Below, in pieces: positions 2,085 through 53,085 of a DNA stretch of 64,000 nt (position 1 is the stretch's first letter; the number at the start of each line of letters is the position of its first letter). The stretch comes from Polytrichum commune. Taxonomy: Eukaryota; Streptophyta; Polytrichopsida; Polytrichales; Polytrichaceae. The position numbers were made by a program, and so were the translations under genes. Under the pieces are notes generated by a model, which was not told the DNA's origin, did no database searches, and worked only from the letters and a program-made list of their open reading frames with translations. Location: positions 20,958,001 through 21,022,000 of the forward strand of contig OX485804.1 of assembly GCA_950295325.1 (NCBI GenBank), written 5' to 3'.

Positions 2085-2428
2085 TGTTAGATGGAGGGTT
2101 TATATATGATGTTATGGTATATATGATTTTTGGGGATTTGGTCCGCCACTAATAGTTTTTTTATTGGAATCAATAGGAGATAAGATTGCACAAGCATAGA
2201 CACCTATACAAAGGCATACGAGCAATGCTTGGATTGAAATGGTCTCATACTCTCCTTGCTTTGCCTTTTATTGCTTTTCTTCTTTTCATTGGTTCACACA
2301 AACAATATGGGATAACTCGTATCCCTCTTCAGATTAGCATGGTAGCCTTATTCTAACCTTATTCTTGCTCATGCTTCTTTTTTTGTATTTTTATTGACTA
2401 CGAGCAATCTAGTGCTCTACCTTCTACA
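2085..2428 (-). mobile_element. candidate 3' LTR of a copia element
   Basis: This lies immediately downstream (minus strand) of the copia RNase H end. The purine run AAAGTGGGAG, a plausible polypurine tract, directly precedes the TGTAGAAGG terminus at 2428. Reading to 2085 gives a 344-bp segment whose two ends form an imperfect inverted repeat (TGTTAGATGG and, reversed, TGTAGAAGGT), with the TG...CA boundaries usual for LTRs. No second LTR was found in the window, so the far boundary at 2085 is an inference. Confidence 0.4.
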
Positions 2429-2715
2429 CTCCCACTTTGCGAGTAGTCAAAGGCTTCTAAACTCATTGCCTTTGTTAAAGTTTGATGCCTATCTTTTGCA
2501 AGTGATTTGGTTAGCATGTCCGCTATCATATCATCCGTAAGACAATTCTTCAAACATATCTCTTGGTTTTCTAGTTTCTCTCTAATGAAGTGATGTTGTA
2601 CATCGATATGTTTGGTGCGAGAATGGTGTGTGGGATTCTTTGCAAGTGCTATGCATTCATGATTGTCACAATGAATGGATGTCGGTCCTTTGTGCACATA
2701 TCCCACATCCGCCAA
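2398..2715 (-). pseudogene. Ty1/copia Pol, RNase H C-terminal fragment
   Basis: About 105 residues of the C-terminal RNase H region of a Ty1/copia polyprotein. Visible copia hallmarks, in order, are IHCDN (with the active-site Asp), ALAKNPTHHSRTKHIDVQ, HHFIREKLENQ and DMIADMLTKSLAKDRH. The frame continues a few codons upstream (LLLADVGY), then matches nothing recognisable, and no reverse transcriptase or integrase is seen beyond about 2735. It is therefore a truncated relic, not a working element. The open frame runs to the end of the polyprotein (GSVEG, then stop) and overlaps the start of the candidate LTR, as is common in copia elements. Its role in an intact element would be removal of RNA from the RNA/DNA hybrid during reverse transcription. 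Identification is firm; the exact upstream break is not. Confidence 0.9.
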
Positions 2716-5700
2716 AAGTAGAGAGGAAACCTTGAGAAAAAGGAAAATAGAAGATGATTGAGTGATGTTCTAGAGTGAAGATAGCAATCCTATTGTATGA
2801 TTAATGAACAATAATGTGACAAATGCTTGTAATAGACACTAGTAAAGCCTTCCTTGAGAGTTTGTACCTTGGGTTTTGGTTTATTTCACTCATAGCAAAA
2901 ACCTAACTACAAGCTACAATAATATATTAAGGTTTATTTCTAGATCTACAAATACTATGTTGCTTGCATAGTAATAAATCCCTTGACAAGATGTAGAGCA
3001 TGAATTCTACGGTACTACAATAGATTGTATTGAATGTCAAATGTCCCCTTGCATTTCATTTATAGCCAAATTATTAGAATTTAATGGAATATAATCTTTA
3101 AATGGATAATTATATCGCTAATTATTGATCATTGCTCACATGTTACTCCTCACCACTCATCGCTCACCGCTCGCACGCTAGTTTCCCTCGTGTGGGTGAT
3201 AAGTTGTTTTCCAAGTCCTCTAGGGCTCCTAGGATGCATAAGATATGTTTGCTCTTGATCTGGATAGGCACATGCACTTTGAGGGACTACAAAAGGTGCA
3301 TGAGGCTAATGTGGATACCTCCAACTACGTGGAATCATATAGCTGATGGATTTGAGCATTAGAAGCTCGACCATGTTAGTAATTGCAGATCGAGACCAAA
3401 GAATTTGAAATCTTCAAAATTGGAGTTCAGGTAGGTGTTGATATGGGCTTTGGAATCAAAGATTCTCTACTTACTAATATGGTGTTATAGGGGGAATTCT
3501 TTTATCGTTCAATGTTGTGTAAGTGGACAACATCATTAGCAAATTGTACATGGGTCATTTGCCAATGAAAACCAAGCTTAATGTTAGTATTGGTTGTGTC
3601 ATGTCTCTAAAGTGGTGACATGTAAGATAAAATGTTGTTGAATTGCTTTTTCATTATAGAATACCCACACTTCAAGTTGGTCGCCACCTCATAATCACAT
3701 GTCGCCTCCTAATTTGCCCACCTTGGGCACAAAAATCAAGCATGCCATAGCTCGGTGGATAGCACTCCTCATTGTGGAGGATGTTGGGTGTAGTTTGATT
3801 TGTGCGAAAGTAACTAACCAAATATCATAATGACGCCAACTAAATCACCATGTATTACTCGGCCATTGCATTAAAGCAATAGTAATGTCAAATAAGAGCC
3901 AAAAATAGGTGTTCAATTAAGGAAACTACTTGAATTAACCTCGTCTACCTTATATCCATTCTAGAATCTATGATGACATCATGTTATCGGGAGGTTTGTA
4001 GTTGTGTGTGCATGGGTTCATGATGATGAGCAATCGGATTTGTAAACGTGACTTTTGTAAGTTGGCGTATGATACAATTGGGGATCATCACCAAAGAATA
4101 TTCTCCCAAAATCTTTTAAATGAATATCTAGTCCAATCTCATCAAATAGAAGATGCCAACCATGAGTCAACATGAGGCCAAAATAAAAGGAAGACACTTC
4201 AACCTTGGGCATTGACTCCACTTATGTCCAATCTCATCATAACACACACCTTTATGGTGGGCATTTTGAACTTCAAGCCCTATAATGCTTATGCAACTCA
4301 AACATATGTGTCCAATTTAAAAGAATGACCACATAAAAGCCATACATTTTATTGTCTTTATTGGTTCACAAAAACAAGTATCTTTGGCGAAGGTATATAC
4401 TGGGGTTGCTTCATAGTCTAAAGTGCATGTAGGTTGTATTCAAGTAAATCTAGACATATATTCAAAATCATGACTTTTTGGTTGCTTCACTTCTATCATG
4501 GGATCTACAATATACTTTTGATATATCTAAAATTTATGGAAGATGTGTGAATCTTTGTTGACTGCTTGATTAAATCCTATTAAAATGTGATTTTAGAATA
4601 TAAATATTTTATATGAAATTTATACAAATAAAACTTGAATAGTAAAAATAATCAAAACAATTGCTACAATATTATCCTAATCAACTTTGCATATTCTACC
4701 GAAGGATTTTACCACACAATCCTATCATAAGATCCTATGATATAATTCAACATGTTATAAGTATGGACTTGGACTTAGTCCAATTTTACTTAAGTGTGGG
4801 TTATCCCCGTCCATCCTTCCAAGTTCTTTTTCATTTGCACCACAACAATTGTCATGTGCTTTTTAGGGTTAAGGTATGGTCGAACAAACTTCCGCTCGTA
4901 TGGTAATGAACAATGTGAAGAATAACTTGCCTACTTGAAGACCTTAAGATTTGAACAAATGGTGAACTGGGATTAGATACGGGTAGCTTCAAACTTTTTT
5001 TTTTTGGGGGCGGCCCTTAAAGCAATAGTTTTTTTAGTAGCTCATAGGCCATTTTATGGGAAGTCCCAAAATTTGGAGACATGCCTATGTTCAAATCTAT
5101 GAATCCAAATAAACATGCTTAAAAATGTCAAATCATCATCTTACACGTGCACCTATAGTTGAAGTTGTGTGTGGTTATGCGGGAGATCAAAAAACAATAC
5201 AAAACATATATATGTGTTATAAAAAGGTTAGACTACAAGCTAAAGGTTAACAATTATTGTAGTTAGCATTTTGTTATGACGTAATTAATCAAAACCTAAG
5301 GAAGGCTTGTTGGGTGTCTCTTATATGCATATGTCACATTACATCTCATTAATTAGACAAAAGGATTGCTATTTCACTCTAAAACATAATTGACATGCCA
5401 TTCACTTCTCTTTTCTTAGGGATTCTTCTCAAGATGTTAATTTTAGTATTTCATTTAGTCTTGTATTTTGAATGTGATATGTAATTCTTTAATTTCTTGA
5501 CAGTAAAGTGTACCAATAGTCTTTGGTAACCACGGTTTTTTGAGTGTAACAATTGTCTTTGTAACCATTAGCCAATGCATTTTCAAATCACAATAAGTTC
5601 TTTCATCAATTGGTTAATTCTAATGCAAAACAAATTGTTTATTTATTACTTCCAAGATTTTAATGATTACTCACAATTGTGCAATTAATAGCCAAAATAA

Positions 5701-18193: not shown

Positions 18194-18785
18194 AAGCTTA
18201 GTTGCTGCTGGGAGCTGAAACTACACCGGCTTAGTTGCTGCTGGGAGCTGAAACTACACCAGCTTAGTTGCTGTTGGGCAGCTGAACTTACACCCAGCTT
18301 AGTAGCTGCTGACAGTTGAAACTGCACCCATCTTAGTTGCTGTTGGGCAGCTGAAACTACACAGGCTTAGTGGCTGCTGGGCAGCTGAAACTACACCAGC
18401 TTAGTTGCTGCTGGGAGCTGAACTTACACCCAACTTAGTGGCTGCTGGGCAGCTGAAACTACACCAGCTTAGTTGCTGCTGGGAGCTGAACTTACACCCA
18501 ACTTAGTGGCTGTTGGGCAGCTGAAACTACACCAGCTTAGTTGCTGCTGGGATCTGAACTTACACCCAACTTAGTGGCTGCTGGGCAGCTGAAACTACAC
18601 CAGCTTAGTTGCTGCTGGGAGCTGAACTTACACCCAGCTTAGTGGCTGCTGGGCAGCTGAAACTACACCAGCTTAGTTGCTGCTGGGAGCTGAAACTACA
18701 CCAGCTTAGTTGCTGCTGGGAGCTGAACTTACACCCAGCTTAGTTGCTGATGGGCAGCTGAAACTACACAAGCTTAGTGGCTGAT
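18194..18785 (+). repeat. minisatellite, about 34-bp unit, 17 copies
   Basis: Seventeen full units of 33-35 bp and one partial unit. Each begins with AGCTTAGT, continues with TGCTGCTGGG and the palindrome-bearing CAGCTGAA or GAGCTGAA, and ends in ACTACACC or ACTTACACCC. In the middle, two unit types alternate (TTGCTGCTGGGAGCTGAACT and GTGGCTGCTGGGCAGCTGAA), giving a higher-order dimer of about 68 bp. No open frame runs through it. It is bracketed by a CT-rich region and a short open frame at 19,029. Confidence 0.95.
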
Positions 18786-41662: not shown

Positions 41663-43008
41663 AAAATTAAAAAGAAAATCTTCTTCTGGTTATTTCTCAA
41701 ACTTAACCGCTTCATCTGTAATTAATGGCCGGTTCCCCCATTCATTGACCAAAACCTCGCCAGGATTCAAGTTACAACATTTTCCCCTAAGTTGATAACC
41801 TCAACTTGAGTCTGGTTGCGAGTGAGGGAAATATTGAATTTGAGCACACTAACCTCTCATTTCCTCCAAAATCAAAGATCCAAAATGTACACAACCCAAA
41901 GATTTTGTTAAAATGTACACTTGACACTAGAATTGGTCTTAAAGACCCCGAATCAATGTGTTGCAAGTCATTTGGAATGAATCAACCACAATGCTTCTAG
42001 GGGGTCAAGCTTTTATGTTGGATGGATGAGAGGTGGGTACACTCATATGTAATGATTCCCTCTCGCCTTCCATTTTGGCATGTCCTAGAAGTCTTACATG
42101 GACTTATCTTTTATGATTGTAATCCGATTGAAGGTTGATGGTGCTTGAACCATGACTTCCATAATCATGTGCTATTATTAGATCAAAATCTTAAATGATA
42201 TTCGCTAGCAATTGACAAGGACCTTAACTAACACACCAAAACATGCATCATTTGAATATGCAAGTGTTTGTAAGGGTTTGAGTTGTTGTTGGTAGATGAC
42301 ACAAAACCAACACAAAAACCTGATGTTAAGGTGGCGGATACTCTCAAAAATCAATATGTACGCACCATGCAAGAATTTGGGGCGTTGGTTGCAACACCGT
42401 ATACTTTATCAAATGTATCCGATTTAAGATTGAAAAAACCTATAATAGATATTATGAGCACATAGGGCTCTTGACATGTTCAAGACATCGATCACATGTA
42501 CTAATTACAAAATGGATGCCTACAAACCTTGGGCCCTAGCATGATGTTTTCTTGAAAGAGAGGTGTGTGTTTGGTAAGAGCTTTGAGGGTAGATTCAAAG
42601 CATTTGGGGTTTTGTGGATTTGGTAGAGAGAGAGAGAGAGAACGGGATAAGATGCTCAAGGCCTACAAACAAGCGCGTGACATCGTCCGGTGCAAGTTCT
42701 TCGATAATCTTGATGGCACGTGGAGCTAGATGTGTCTTATGTAGTCGTCAAGATCTAAAGGTCGTTTGGAAGAGATAGATATATAGGCCACCTCTAGGGA
42801 TGTTCTTTTGATCCCCCACCCCCCCGGTGACAATAAATGCGGGATTTTTTTAATCCCACTTTGCAATGAAGTCTAGCCTCTCTTTTTAATGAGCTTTTGG
42901 AATACTCAAGGGTTGACGCATTTGCATTACGAATTGGTGTGCAAAGGGCTACATTCGGGTTCATAGTTTAGTTTAGTTTTGCGAATATGGTGTTTCTCCT
43001 CTGCTTAG
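41663..43008. other. gene-free stretch
   Basis: No supported gene. A GA run lies at about 42,623-42,641 and a C-run at about 42,817-42,825. Confidence 0.4.
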
Positions 43009-43164
43009 TGTAATGTAACTATACCTAGTTACCATCCTACGATGACGAGGCGTCCTCAACGACGAGGCTAATTGACAATATGATATTGTAAAGTAACTAC
43101 ACCTAGTTGCCATCCTACGACGACGAGGCGTCCTCAACGGCAAGGCTAATTGACAATGTGACAT
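43009..43164 (+). repeat. 78-bp tandem duplication
   Basis: Two copies, 43,009-43,086 and 43,087-43,164, differ at a few bases and share CCTAGTTGCCATCCTACGAC (one base differs in copy 1), GACGAGGCGTCCTCAACG and GGCTAATTGACAAT. A degenerate third copy may follow to about 43,240. The minus-strand open frame here only translates the duplication. Confidence 0.85.
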
Positions 43165-43303
43165 TTAATGTATACCATGATGACGAGGTTGGGTGTATGG
43201 ACACCTAGTCATCGACGGTAGTGTCATTGTAAGGTAAATACCAATATTGATGGATAATTGAATATTCTAACCACATGTGCCAGTGTGTAAGCGGAGGATG
43301 ATG

Positions 43304-43668
43304 GGAGCTAGACAACTCCTAGTTGAAGATGGATGGATTGGAGTTAGACAACTCCAGATTGACAACATGTGCACTGGAGTTAGACAGCTCCGCATATAGT
43401 GCATTGGAATTAGACCATTCCATATTGAGAACATGTGCACATGAGTTAGACAACTCTCGATGAGGTGCATTGGAGTTGGACCGCTCCAGAATTGGAAAGA
43501 TGAATGTTATTCATTGGAGTTAGACAACTCTTAATGAATAGATGGATCTAGTTGGAATTAGACAATTCCAACTAGAAGAATGAATGGATGAATTTAGTTG
43601 GAATTAGACAATTCCAACTAGAAAGAAGGATGGATGAATCCAATTGGAATTAGACAATTCCAATTGGA
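43304..43668. repeat. array of ten hairpins with an invariant AGAC loop
   Basis: Ten consecutive inverted repeats are spaced 29-46 bp centre to centre. Loop tetranucleotides are at 43,310, 43,346, 43,382, 43,412, 43,448, 43,478 (GGAC), 43,522, 43,560, 43,606 and 43,652. Arms grow from 4-7 bp at the left to 12-13 bp at the right. The last three are perfect: left arms CTAGTTGGAATT at 43,548-43,559, TAGTTGGAATT at 43,595-43,605 and CCAATTGGAATT at 43,640-43,651, each with its exact complement after the loop. Arm sequences differ between hairpins yet stay self-complementary. Function unknown. Confidence 0.9.
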
Positions 43669-45412
43669 AGAATGAGATTGAGATAAGAGATGGAAGAAGG
43701 TTTTAGAAGAACCAAAGATAGAAGATTCATAGTAGAACTAAAAGATAGAGCTATGAATATGATACTTTTACTATATGTAAAGATAGAAAGTAAAAGTAGT
43801 GCTTCGGCATAAGAAGAAGCTCGGGGGAGGAGAGAGGACCTTTGGTCTCTCTCCTATGGTCGGGTGGTTGAGCTTTAACCAAAACATACTTGGTCTATGA
43901 TTGTTTTGGGTTGATACGTGTTAGTGTGGAAGTTGGTGATAAACCGGTGAGAGGTTCGTTACACTTAGTGGCTACAATGTCGAGTATTTGGAAGGAGAAA
44001 CATGGCAATTTGCACATGAAGAAAAGGTGCAAGTATAGGCAATAATATACGTACCAATTCTAAAAAAAGTGGTTATTGTATTGAGTTTTCTTGTTGATTG
44101 GCAATAATATACATTTGACTGCCCATAAATTGGCTATTCTCTAGGATCAACAATTGCATGATGCCAATAATACTACGATATTATATACGAATGATGATTT
44201 CCTTTGGAGATAGCTTTAGCCATTGTAGGCCTAAGTTTGCACCTCCTAAATCAACTATGGTATCATACATTGCAACACTAATGTTTCAAGCTAATTGAAG
44301 CTTAATAATGACCTCCAATGGAAGGAAAAAACTGCAAAGTCCGTACTCAAGACCCACTAAAAATCAAAAGCCGACATCAATTTACGACATCAATTTACAA
44401 CAACTCAAACCTTTAGTTCCATATCCCATGAGAAAATCAAGGGGTTCCAGAATCCAAGCAACTCACTCCACTCAAAACATGGCTCCTACAACAAAACTTC
44501 CACCCCAAGCTAATTATGACAAAATAATGGAGGTGCAAACCCAAATCTACCCAGCATCACAAAACTACGTATATTATCATCAAGAATAGATGGATAACTA
44601 AAAATAGAAATATGGTTGACAACGGCGGTCTAAATGTCATTCTTCGTAAACCTCCTCAACGGGAAGTTTTCAAGCTTAAACAAACTATGGCTATATTCTA
44701 TGATGCAAGCTACCATGTGTTCATTCAATATGTTTTGGAGTTCAGATTTAGAGAAAGAGACCGTTGAAAAAATTCTCTTGTCCTCAACATATTCAAGTGT
44801 TTGCACGACAACTAGTTCAACCATCTTCACCCACTCATAAAAGTGGCTCCAAAGAACCACGGACATAGACATGGTTCTTCATAGTTTGGTTAGTGGGTGC
44901 ACAAAAACGGGTTTCTCCAAAGCACCCACCACATCAACTTTCATCGCACCTTTAAACAAGCTCCATGGATGGATCAAATCAATAGTATTTAGCAAGGGGG
45001 TCGAATAACAATCCTCGGTATTTTGTTCGATACTGTAACAATTCGTCAAACAAAAAAATTGGTTATCAATGTAACCAATATGAAGGGTAAACAACCCCGA
45101 GTGTGTCCATGATTAAAGACCCAACGAACTTGGATAAAGCTTAGTAACTAGATGCTCAACATGATTTGTGAAGACCACCATGTCACAAAGTTAGAACTTG
45201 TAAAGTGGCCATAAGTAATGTGTAGTTGGAGCATGACACAATTGATGGAGGCCATGTTCCGGATTGAAAGTTATCATGTGATTTGTAAGTACGAAGGATG
45301 CATCATCATTGGTGAAATATATACCTAAAATTTCACCCTCCATGGTTTAGAAATTTTAAATACTAGTAGACCCCTCAATTTTAAGTGACGAGACCTTGCT
45401 CCAAACTAAGTA
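43669..45412. other. gene-free stretch
   Basis: No supported gene. Open frames at 44,308-44,589 and 44,630-45,094 have no recognisable domain, and the latter overlap on opposite strands. Confidence 0.4.
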
Positions 45413-45720: not shown

Positions 45721-46486
45721 CAACAATATACATGTACCTAGATGTAGTGTATTGTTTGATGAATTTTCTTTACACAAGTATTTATGCAAACTTGGTCAAT
45801 TAGAAGATATTCTTAAGGTGAGAAAAAAATACATCAAAATAGTCCTATTAGTGTGGGACATAAATATTGTTCAAGAGCCAACACGAAATCTCACAATGAG
45901 ATCAACTGATATGAGCCATGTTGATTTTCAACCCACACCATATCTATAGTTTTATTTTCGTGTGGGCTACAATAATTGTTTTTTTCCTTCTCATAAAGAC
46001 CATGGTGTCTTCGACCCATGTTGATTCCACCCTGACTAGACAATTAGAGTGGCTTGCATTAATCCATTCAGGCTAATATTCCACCTGTACCGATAAGAAT
46101 GCTTAGTGTAGTTTATCCCCTCCCCCCCCCCCCCAAAAAAAATCTAACAGTCTAGTGTTGAAATTTTCCAAAGAACCCAACAAAACTAAAATCACAACCA
46201 ATCTACGCCTAATCAATTCCATGCATAGTGTAAGGTAGTTGTACCTAATGAATAAGGCATTCACATGAGCTCCACATCAAATGAGGAAAGTGGTGATGCC
46301 CTTGATTTGGATTTGCTAACCATCTCGTACTAAGTTAACAATGTGTACTCATATCCTAGGAGAACTAGGCTATGTCAAAAAAGTAACCATTTAAGACTCA
46401 CCTACCTTAGTAAACTATGAGGCACAAAATGCTTGTACAAGGTAGAGATACTCGATTATGTTAATTGTAAGCAATTTCACATAAGT
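45721..46486. other. gene-free stretch
   Basis: No supported gene. C-run at about 46,122-46,134. Confidence 0.4.
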
Positions 46487-47293
46487 GTAATACAAGTATG
46501 ATATTGGAGTGGTTTCTCACGGGTCTAGACATTGATGTCACAACATATAAACAAAAACAAAATTCATAAATTATTTCCAATTCCGGAAATTACCGTACAT
46601 TTCAAAGGCAAGATTCTCTCCCAACTCATATTCTTCACATCATAAGTCGACCTATTTCCAATAACTACCCCATGGATGTGGAATCTCGGGTTTTTTTGCA
46701 TTGTAACAACTCACCCTTTCCGACGACCAACGACTTTACTAAAATAAGTAATAAGTGTAACACAAGTATGATATTGGAACGAATTCTCACATGTCTAGAC
46801 ATTGATGTCACAACATATACCCAAATAATAATGATACTTTATTTCCAAGTTAAGAATTCACTGTAAATTTCAAAGGCAAGATTCTCTCCCAACTCATATT
46901 CTTCACATCATAACTCGACCTATTTCCAATAACTACCCAAGGGATGTGGAATCTCGGGTTTTTTTGCACTATAACGACTCGCCCTTCTCGACAACCAATG
47001 ATTATACTAAAACAAGTAATATTTGTAATACAAGTATGATATTGGAGTGATTTCTCACAGGTCTCAACATTGACGTCACAACATACAACCAAAAAAAAAA
47101 TTTAAAATAAATAAAATCTTCCAAGTTTTGAAATCACCAGAAATTTCAAAGGCATGTTTCTCTCCCAACTCATATTCTTCACGTCATAAGTCGACCTATT
47201 TCCAATAAGTACCCAAGAAATGTGGAATCTCGGGGTGTTTTTGGCACTGTAACAACTCGCCCTTTCCGACGACCAACGACTATACTAAAACAA
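46487..47293. repeat. three tandem copies of a 269-bp repeat
   Basis: Copies start at 46,487, 46,757 and 47,025, each with GTAATACAAGTATGATATTG or a one-base variant. Each includes TCTCCCAACTCATATTCTTC, GACCTATTTCCAATAA and GATGTGGAATCTCGG. Minus-strand frames through the repeat share a stretch reading roughly NPRFHIPW, then YDVKNMSWERILPLK. I do not recognise this as any family. Confidence 0.9.
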
Positions 47294-47563
47294 GGAAGGA
47301 GTAAATTAAGGTGCTAATCGTGCAAAGATTTTGGGGAGAGTCAACCCCGAAATTGGGTTATGTTGCTGGTTTTTGGGGGAATTCCTAGTAACTGACCTCA
47401 GCTTACACCGAATCGTATAAACGACTATACGGTTATTGCCCGAAATTGCTCGACGCTGGTGATTTTACAAAGGGTGACCGAATCTGCCTTCCATATTATT
47501 GGACTACAATCTTTCCCCGACTCCAAAACCGCTTCAAAATCTCAGTAATGTGACAATTTTTTA

Positions 47564-51302: not shown

Positions 51303-53085
51303 GAGCCGGCCGCTAGGTACCGGTGCACCGGTTGAGTTTGGGGAACAACCGGTTCAAGGTCAAGGCTTTGGGAGGATTACCGATCGTTTTAGAGGAATCC
51401 GTGGAATATACCTCAAGTCCATAGAGGGAAAACCCTCCCCCGGACATTGGACCGCTAGTTACCGGTGAACCGGTTGAGTTTGGGGAACAACCGGTCCAAG
51501 TTCAAGGCTTTGGGAGCATTACCGACCGTTTTAGAGGAATCTATGGAATATACCCCCAAGTCCATGAAGGAAAAACCCCACAAAAGATGTCGACATGTGA
51601 CCGGTGGGTCTTGGAAGTCACTACATCGCGGTTATGCCCAAAAACTCTTCCCTGGACATTGGACCGCTAGTTACCGGTGAACCGGTTGAGTTTGGGAAAC
51701 AACAGGTCCAAGTTCAAGGGTTTGAGAGGATTACCGGTCCTTTTAGAGGAATCTGTAGAATGTACCCCACATCCATGAAGGAAATATCCCGGAAAGATGT
51801 CGACATGTGATCGGTGGGTCTTGGAAGCCACTATATAGTGGGATCTCGACCGGTTATGCCCAAAAATCCTCCCCCGGACATTGGACCGCTAGTTACCGGT
51901 GAGCCGGTTGAGTTTGGGGAACAACCGGTCCAAGTTCAAGGCTTTGGGAGGATTACCGGCCATTTTAGAGGAGTCTATGGCATATTCCCCAAGTCCATAG
52001 AGGAAAAACCCCGAAAGATGTCGACATGTGACCGGTGGGTCTTGGAAGCCACTACATAGTGGGATGTCGACCGGTTATGCCCAAAAACTCTTCCCCGGAC
52101 ATTGGACCGCTAGTTATAGATGAACCGGTCGAGTTTGGGGAATAACCGGTCCAAGTTCAAGGCTTCGGGAGAGTGACCAATCATTTGAGAGGAGTCTATG
52201 GAACATACCCCGAGTCAATAAAGAGAAACCCGAAAGATGTCGACATGTGACCGGTGGGTCTTGGAAAACGCTACACACTAAAATCTCGACCGATTATGCC
52301 CAAAAACCACACTCCCCGGATGGACATTGGACCGCTAGTTATAGATGAACCGGTTGAGTTTGGGAAACAACCGGTTCAAGTTCAAAACTTTTTTTTGGGG
52401 TGGAGAATTACCGATTGTTTTAGAGGAATCTATGGAATATACCCAAGTCAATAAAGAAGAACCAAAAGATGTCGACATGTGACCGGTTGGGTCGTGGAAA
52501 ACGCTACGTACTAGAATCTCGACCGATCATGCCCAAAAACCACACTCCCCGGACATTGGACTGCTAGTTGCAGATGAACTGGTTGAGTTTGGGAATTAAC
52601 CAGTTCAAGTTCAAGACTTTGAGAAGACTACACTAAATATGATATTTAGTGCTTGATTATATTTAGTGTTGTTACCACCCTATCATGTTCAGCACTCATT
52701 TTCAATTCTTTACTAATTAGCGTTAGACATGAATGCGCCGCCACCTTCCCTACTGCCACCTCCTTTCCCCTCGTATCATTGTTGATTTTTTTCCATATCC
52801 TTACTAACACTAAATTCGTGCATGTAACTTCCACATATTACCATGATTGATATTTAGTGTTTGAGTTTACGTTTGATGTTACTTGCTTTCATAGGGTTAG
52901 TGTATGCGTTCGTATTTAGTGTAGTGATCCATTTAGAGGAATTTACAAACGTTCCTTGATTTAATAAGGAAAGATGTCAACATGTAACCTGTTGGTCTAG
53001 GGAACCACTACTAGGATCTCAACCGACTAGAATCTCGACCAATTATGCCCAAAAATCTCCCAGGACACTGCTCCTTAGGGCCTTT
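51303..53085 (+). repeat. tandem array of about 220-bp units rich in CCGGTT
   Basis: Unit landmarks (CCGGTTGAGTTTGGG) occur near 51,327, 51,467, 51,686, 51,905, 52,126, 52,345 and 52,570: one shortened unit, then spacings of 219, 219, 221, 219 and 225. Other conserved blocks are TTTTAGAGGAATCTATGG, AAAGATGTCGACATGTGACC and CCGGTTATGCCCAAAAA. The last unit is split by the MITE at 52,631-52,921. Single dispersed copies in both orientations occur at 28.8, 29.5, 40.2-41.2, 50.6 and 60.1 kb. Confidence 0.92.
52631..52921 (+). mobile_element. CACTAAATA-type MITE, family A copy 2, inside the tandem array
   Basis: A 291-bp element, CACTAAATATGATATTTAGTG to CGTATTTAGTG, flanked by TA (52,629-52,630 and 52,922-52,923). 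Removing the element and one TA restores a unit of exactly the expected length (25 bases from AAGACTA to TTTAGAGGAA, as in neighbouring units). Confidence 0.85.

Follow-up and report, generated by a model that had tools for sequence, protein, structure and literature searches.

Ten oriented, dyad-symmetric units in a chromovirus LTR of Polytrichum commune: a candidate enhancer-like array

Introduction

Clusters of palindromic motifs within long terminal repeats (LTRs) are described from the Sireviruses, a group of Ty1/copia retrotransposons. According to the excerpts of PMC2829016 used here, the LTRs of OPIE-2, PREM-2, Osr8, and others carry a dyad-symmetric motif that often includes a few intervening bases; its copies number 8 to 32 per element and cluster upstream of the TATA box. 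In OPIE-2 and PREM-2, it is the motifs that resemble one another, in LTRs of otherwise diverse sequence; a CGG-CCG core is common to 12 of 13 motifs, and Tnd-1 lacks it; and many Sireviruses carry further motif copies near the ENV gene (PMC2829016, same excerpts). The tobacco Ty1/copia element Tnt1 possesses box I, a symmetric activator box in its LTR (PMC2829016, in excerpt). For LTRs of Ty3/gypsy elements or chromoviruses, no precedent of a palindrome array was found in searches of open-licence papers, including excerpts of PMC11302176 and PMC3601003.

Here, we describe an array of this kind in a window of Polytrichum commune DNA, the window being the whole stretch of 64,000 nucleotides that was analysed (contig OX485804.1, positions 20,958,001 to 21,022,000). 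An earlier note on this stretch had reported ten tandem hairpins with matched arms and knew of no named repeat family of this form; Sirevirus LTRs, which carry palindromic arrays upstream of the TATA box, provide a named counterpart (PMC2829016, in excerpt).

The Hairpin Array

The array occupies 43304..43668 on the forward strand and consists of ten dyad-symmetric units, all in a single orientation, built on the core GGARTT-AGAC-AAYTCC with departures from it. Unit 1 (43304..43319) has a C.A mismatch at pair 2, unit 2 (43339..43356) a stem of 7 bp, and unit 3 (43376..43391) a T.G at pair 2. Unit 4 (43406..43421), with T.C at pair 1 and A-T at pair 3, lies in register with unit 2 within a 66-bp repeat. 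A 5-bp stem is found in unit 5 (43443..43456) and in unit 7 (43517..43530), where it is followed by G.T; between them, unit 6 (43472..43487) combines the loop GGAC with T.C at pair 1 and T.G at pair 2. Perfect stems of 13, 11 (then T.G), and 13 bp close the array in units 8 (43547..43576), 9 (43594..43621), and 10 (43639..43668). Loop-to-loop distances across the ten units are 36, 36, 30, 36, 30, 44, 38, 46, and 46.

Much of the earlier description stands: the ten inverted repeats of uniform orientation, the loop AGAC in nine units and GGAC in one, the long stems at the right end, and the arms at 43548 and 43640, which differ at two positions per side with both changes paired. The statement that the arms are complementary within every hairpin does not, since four of the ten units (1, 3, 4, and 6) carry a mismatch or wobble near the loop, at pair 1 or 2, and only six of ten are AGAC-loop units with at least 5 perfect pairs.

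The ten-hairpin array is genuine and far above chance expectation. The segment has four perfect stems of at least 7 bp around a 4-nt loop, where 500 dinucleotide-shuffled versions of it average 0.034, and three of at least 10 bp, where the shuffled versions have none. Folding z-scores of the array are -7.6 for the plus-strand RNA and -8.5 for the minus-strand RNA, and 43533-43680 folded as DNA gives -10.8. Across the 408-Mb assembly, the exact core has 643 matches and its reversed control has one.

No match to Rfam at gathering score was present in the window, and neither a tRNA nor an Rfam RNA identity was detected there. Viral contigs queried with TTGGARTTAGACARYTCCAA returned no matches. 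A free-standing satellite or unknown repeat family is ruled out by the fixed position of the array in an LTR. Other tandem repeats in the window include a 34-bp unit present 17 times at 18195-18783 (83% matches), a 268-bp unit present three times at 46481-47294, and a 221-bp unit with 5.4 copies at 51429-52621.

The Host Element

The array sits in a solo LTR of 955 bp at 43009..43963 (forward strand), reading TGTAAT...GTTACA, the limits of which follow from direct repeats in two full copies (L009 and L010), from near-identical 955-bp copies, and from its ends and target duplication. The target-site duplication CTTAG flanks it at 43004..43008 on the left and at 43964..43968 on the right; TG...CA ends with a 5-bp duplication are what an LTR retrotransposon should leave. 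The 5' end of the LTR is itself duplicated in tandem (43009..43172, forward strand; 78 bp, 2.1 copies), as seen from the tandem repeat and from the starts of LTR matches. Three LTR-query matches start at LTR position 78-79, as if they were without the first 78-bp copy.

The presumed promoter of the LTR has a TATA-like motif at 43772..43776 on the forward strand, ~100 bp 3' of the array. The offset of this motif is +103 in 25 of the 28 LTR-query loci examined and variable in divergent loci. By this layout, the array should be placed in U3, upstream of the TATA-like motif.

Full-length elements were found from two arrays 6.7 kb apart in like orientation. In L009, the direct repeats run from 740 to 1695 and from 7430 (the second incomplete) and are 99.6% identical over 774 bp; in L010, they measure 909 and 955 bp, the difference being one 46-bp unit. 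Another LTR, L049, is 1001 bp long with 11 units, that is, one 46-bp unit more. Both full copies have the primer site TGGTATCAGAGC two bases 3' of the 5' LTR, which we take to be that of the initiator-Met tRNA, and the purine tract GAAGGGGGAGAT before the 3' LTR. The reading frames of L009 match RVP_2, RVT_1, RT_RNaseH, Integrase_H2C2 (the integrase zinc finger), SH3_Tf2-1, and Chromo, and an rve match scores 24.8 bits, under the cut-off of 32.6. This order of protease, reverse transcriptase (RT), RNase H, and integrase, with a chromodomain, is that of a chromovirus. From its LTR ends, its primer site and purine tract, and its coding domains, we therefore assign L009, an element of plant type, to the Ty3/gypsy chromoviruses. 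L009 also holds an insertion of ~1.2 kb with internal tandem repeats (2325-3550), and L010 is without an insertion there.

Copies and Relatives in the Genome

The LTR query, which included the array, gave at least 46 matches, at least 40 of them long; these are lower bounds, with 40 of 789 first-look candidates scored. Thirty LTR loci were fetched, of which 21 stand alone between exact 5-bp duplications, two come from full copies (L046, the 5' LTR of L009, and L037, from L010), and seven have no exact target duplication. The gag leader query had 35 matches, only four of them with an identity of at least 91%; together with the 21 solo loci among 30, this indicates that the young family has more lone LTRs than full copies. 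Several lone LTRs are almost identical to one another.

For sampling independent of the hairpin motif, 10 of the 35 gag-leader matches were chosen and the LTR upstream of each was taken (the gag-linked set). Nine of the ten have the array before the gag leader, with at least nine units in seven, eight in L085, and four in L084; L082 has no array and is alignable only over its last 53 bases. All loci other than the LTR-query and gag-linked ones were retrieved by the motif. Ten of 78 loci were removed as overlapping, leaving 68 for unit-level and divergent-class counts. The LTRs of L086-L088 are 83-84% identical to the window LTR. The subfamily of L086-L088 and L060 has eleven units, the last five mostly with T.G at pair 2, where the window has T.A. 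Sequence comparison thus shows the array to be part of the LTR in a chromovirus family, retained both by related subfamilies and at loci where the upstream U3 has otherwise diverged.

Conservation and a Putative Binding-Site Array

Identity to the window at 23 divergent loci, taken as LTRs from homology of the array and promoter side, is 84% in stems (1828/2171) and 92% in loops (434/472) versus 71% in spacers (1101/1557), part of the stem and loop excess reflecting the choice of loci, since these were fetched by motif. The excess holds with 30 exact units excluded (85 aligned units from divergent loci). Downstream, the LTR is 82% identical (2189/2671), and the upstream U3 hardly aligns, over 20 bases only. 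At 13 nearer loci, stems (1587/1764) and spacers (1522/1707) do not differ (p 0.47).

Within the 85 aligned units, the conserved block runs asymmetrically from -8 to +9. Pairs 7-8 are kept at 93-95% on the left arm and 63-73% on the right, pair 2 is free on either arm, and the flank positions -17 (93% kept) and +24 (99%) are level with the motif. Such an asymmetric block suggests a motif that is read one way rather than a stem alone. The proposal that the array is under selection is supported for the motif, by the identities at divergent loci, and weakly, by the double changes given below, for pairing itself.

We lean, with modest confidence, toward an enhancer-like role for the array, with its oriented, dyad-symmetric units as putative protein-binding sites. 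A host factor, probably as a dimer, would read the half-sites GGARTT/AAYTCC plus the asymmetric centre AGAC, and many such sites beside the TATA box would raise transcription of the element. Units would be gained and lost in tandem, with periods of 66 and 46 bp, and matched half-sites would reflect mainly the inheritance of whole units, along with weak selection that favours symmetry in elements still transposing. Possible resemblances to heat-shock-like GAA/TTC spacing and to the TGTC core of auxin response were also considered.

The enhancer-like reading draws on the 643 core matches versus one, the nine of ten gag-linked LTRs, the conservation at divergent loci, the asymmetric block, the one-unit differences of 46 bp in L010 and L049, the analogy with Sireviruses, and the pair-3 counts given below. 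Against it, stems are barely above the downstream LTR (84 vs 82%), some flanks are equally kept, G.T is commoner than A.C in several of the counts below, and loops are more conserved than stems, as a factor that reads hairpins would also give.

RNA or DNA

If pairing in the sense RNA were selected, G.T would be expected to exceed A.C. At pair 3 of the 643 exact cores genome-wide, G.T occurs 20 times and A.C 28, which gives no sign of G-U tolerance in sense RNA at that pair. The counts are 53 and 42 in divergent aligned units; a set of 332 distinct units, from 616 in 68 loci, gives 49 and 43 at pairs 3-5. Larger imbalances are seen at pairs 3-5 of the gag-linked set (10 to 1, with one G.T contributed by a unit that lies outside the array), in a sample of 95 distinct units (70 to 42), and at pairs 1-6 of divergent (72 to 47) and young units (36 to 10), and they include fixed states counted repeatedly, such as T.G at pair 2 in 34 of 85 units of the gag-linked set and the pair-6 G.T of unit 7 in the young family. 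The G.T/A.C evidence is mixed: an RNA signature is conceivable but not clear.

These counts bear on the possibility that the units act as RNA hairpins in the 3'-terminal part of the genomic RNA, in the U3 of the 3' LTR, where they might serve stability, packaging, transfer, or, as proposed for Sireviruses, as a source of small RNA. The strong predicted folds on either strand and the larger G.T imbalances, partly fixed states, would fit this, as would the palindromes of maize Sireviruses, which are small-RNA hotspots according to excerpts of PMC5311732 and PMC10760457. We nevertheless regard it as unlikely, given the pair-3 deficit of G.T and the near-even counts elsewhere, the asymmetric conservation of the arms, and a window without an Rfam match.

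Covariation of the Arms

Young copies were compared in an alignment of 31 LTR rows with the window (L011 and L014 excluded). Singletons per site are 0.125 in stems, 0.121 in spacers, 0.125 downstream, 0.173 upstream, and 0.225 in loops. Changes present in at least two copies number 5 over 168 stem sites, 3 over 40 loop sites, 8 over 157 spacer sites, and 20 over 295 sites each upstream and downstream. No both-arm change was found in the 31 rows or in the comparison of young units. Young copies decay via single-arm changes, at the background rate, which for inserted copies is the outcome that the earlier note had named as refuting its reading.

On homologous units, the statistics range from no excess of matched changes to a modest one. 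Divergent loci show four double Watson-Crick changes at pairs 1-6 of flank-classed units, versus 2.6 (sd 1.4) in shuffles, and eight at pairs 1-13 of units 8-10, versus 5.6 (sd 2.0), the shuffles ignoring relatedness. The sample of 95 distinct units comprises the window, the gag-linked LTRs, and 11 of the 13 nearer loci at pairs 1-8; in shuffles that likewise ignore relatedness, its 12 double changes (6.7 expected, sd 2.0) were reached in 9 of 1000, its nine further pair types (5.7, sd 1.6) in 44 of 1000, and its 557 paired cells (545.8, sd 4.0) in 5 of 1000. This excess is at best a modest sign.

The 708 window Watson-Crick pairs in the 85 divergent units divide into 525 unchanged, 157 with one-sided changes, 14 changed to another Watson-Crick pair, and 12 changed on both sides and unpaired. 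Clear matched changes are those of unit 4 versus unit 2, of unit 1 at pair 6, and of unit 10 at pairs 5 and 9. Outer pairs are often mismatched in relatives, for example at pair 11 of unit 10 (n=19), with A.A in six, A.G in four, C.G in four, T.A in two, T.G in two, and A.T in one. Some matched arm changes, mostly G-C to A-T, do exist between units, as the earlier note had seen, and between subfamilies; young copies show none, and the covariation of the earlier note is borne out in part only.

One might suppose that a palindromic founder unit was amplified in tandem and is carried by the LTR without function, its matched arms reflecting inheritance and symmetric C-to-T decay. Background-rate decay in young copies, the lack of an excess in divergent flank-classed units, and stems kept no better than spacers at the 13 nearer loci agree with this, and nine of the 12 matched cells in the 95-unit sample are G-C to A-T relative to the commonest pair, the direction expected from cytosine decay in symmetric contexts. 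We consider it rather unlikely in view of the better-kept stems and loops at divergent loci and of the array in nine of ten related LTRs. An array without function would be an ordinary LTR feature.

The modest excess in the 95-unit sample would also be expected under selection for pairing, and to that extent it counts against linear binding sites. It is conceivable, and in our judgment doubtful, that a factor reads the folded AGAC hairpin, as extruded DNA or sense RNA, a Sirevirus-like array having evolved independently in the chromovirus lineage. A second retrotransposon superfamily would then have its transcription linked to small-RNA recognition by the host. Finally, the correction by template switching in quasi-palindromes that the earlier note proposed, for example during reverse transcription, would account for nearly perfect longest stems and for the matched changes seen at pair 9 of unit 10 and pair 6 of unit 1, but is highly improbable, as it predicts inverted loops, found in 0 of 650 arm-anchored units from 79 arrays, and is at odds with the absence of both-arm changes in the young family and with the often unmatched outer pairs of relatives, such as A.A at unit 10 pair 11.

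Comparison with Known Systems

Under the enhancer-like reading, or any other in which the array is functional, a promoter design of many palindromes upstream of a TATA box would exist in both plant LTR superfamilies, and the units, with arms from short to 13 bp, matched and mismatched, would form a natural variant series for the question of linear site versus hairpin.

Tnt1 resembles the window element in having a symmetric box in its LTR, and differs in being Ty1/copia rather than Ty3/gypsy. Its U3 boxes, the activity of which has been studied, are arranged in tandem, and their sequence presumably differs from that of the window array.

As in the Sireviruses, the window array is a cluster of palindromic units in an LTR, upstream of a TATA-like motif at 43772, and by this analogy the design is one already described in another retrotransposon group. 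Unlike the Ty1/copia Sireviruses, the window element has the gypsy domain order and a chromodomain. Its core is GGARTT/AAYTCC with a nearly fixed asymmetric AGAC centre, whereas theirs is CGG-CCG in 12 of 13 motifs, and in contrast to the many Sireviruses with copies near ENV, the AGAC-loop stems of at least 7 bp in L009 and L010 are confined to the LTRs.
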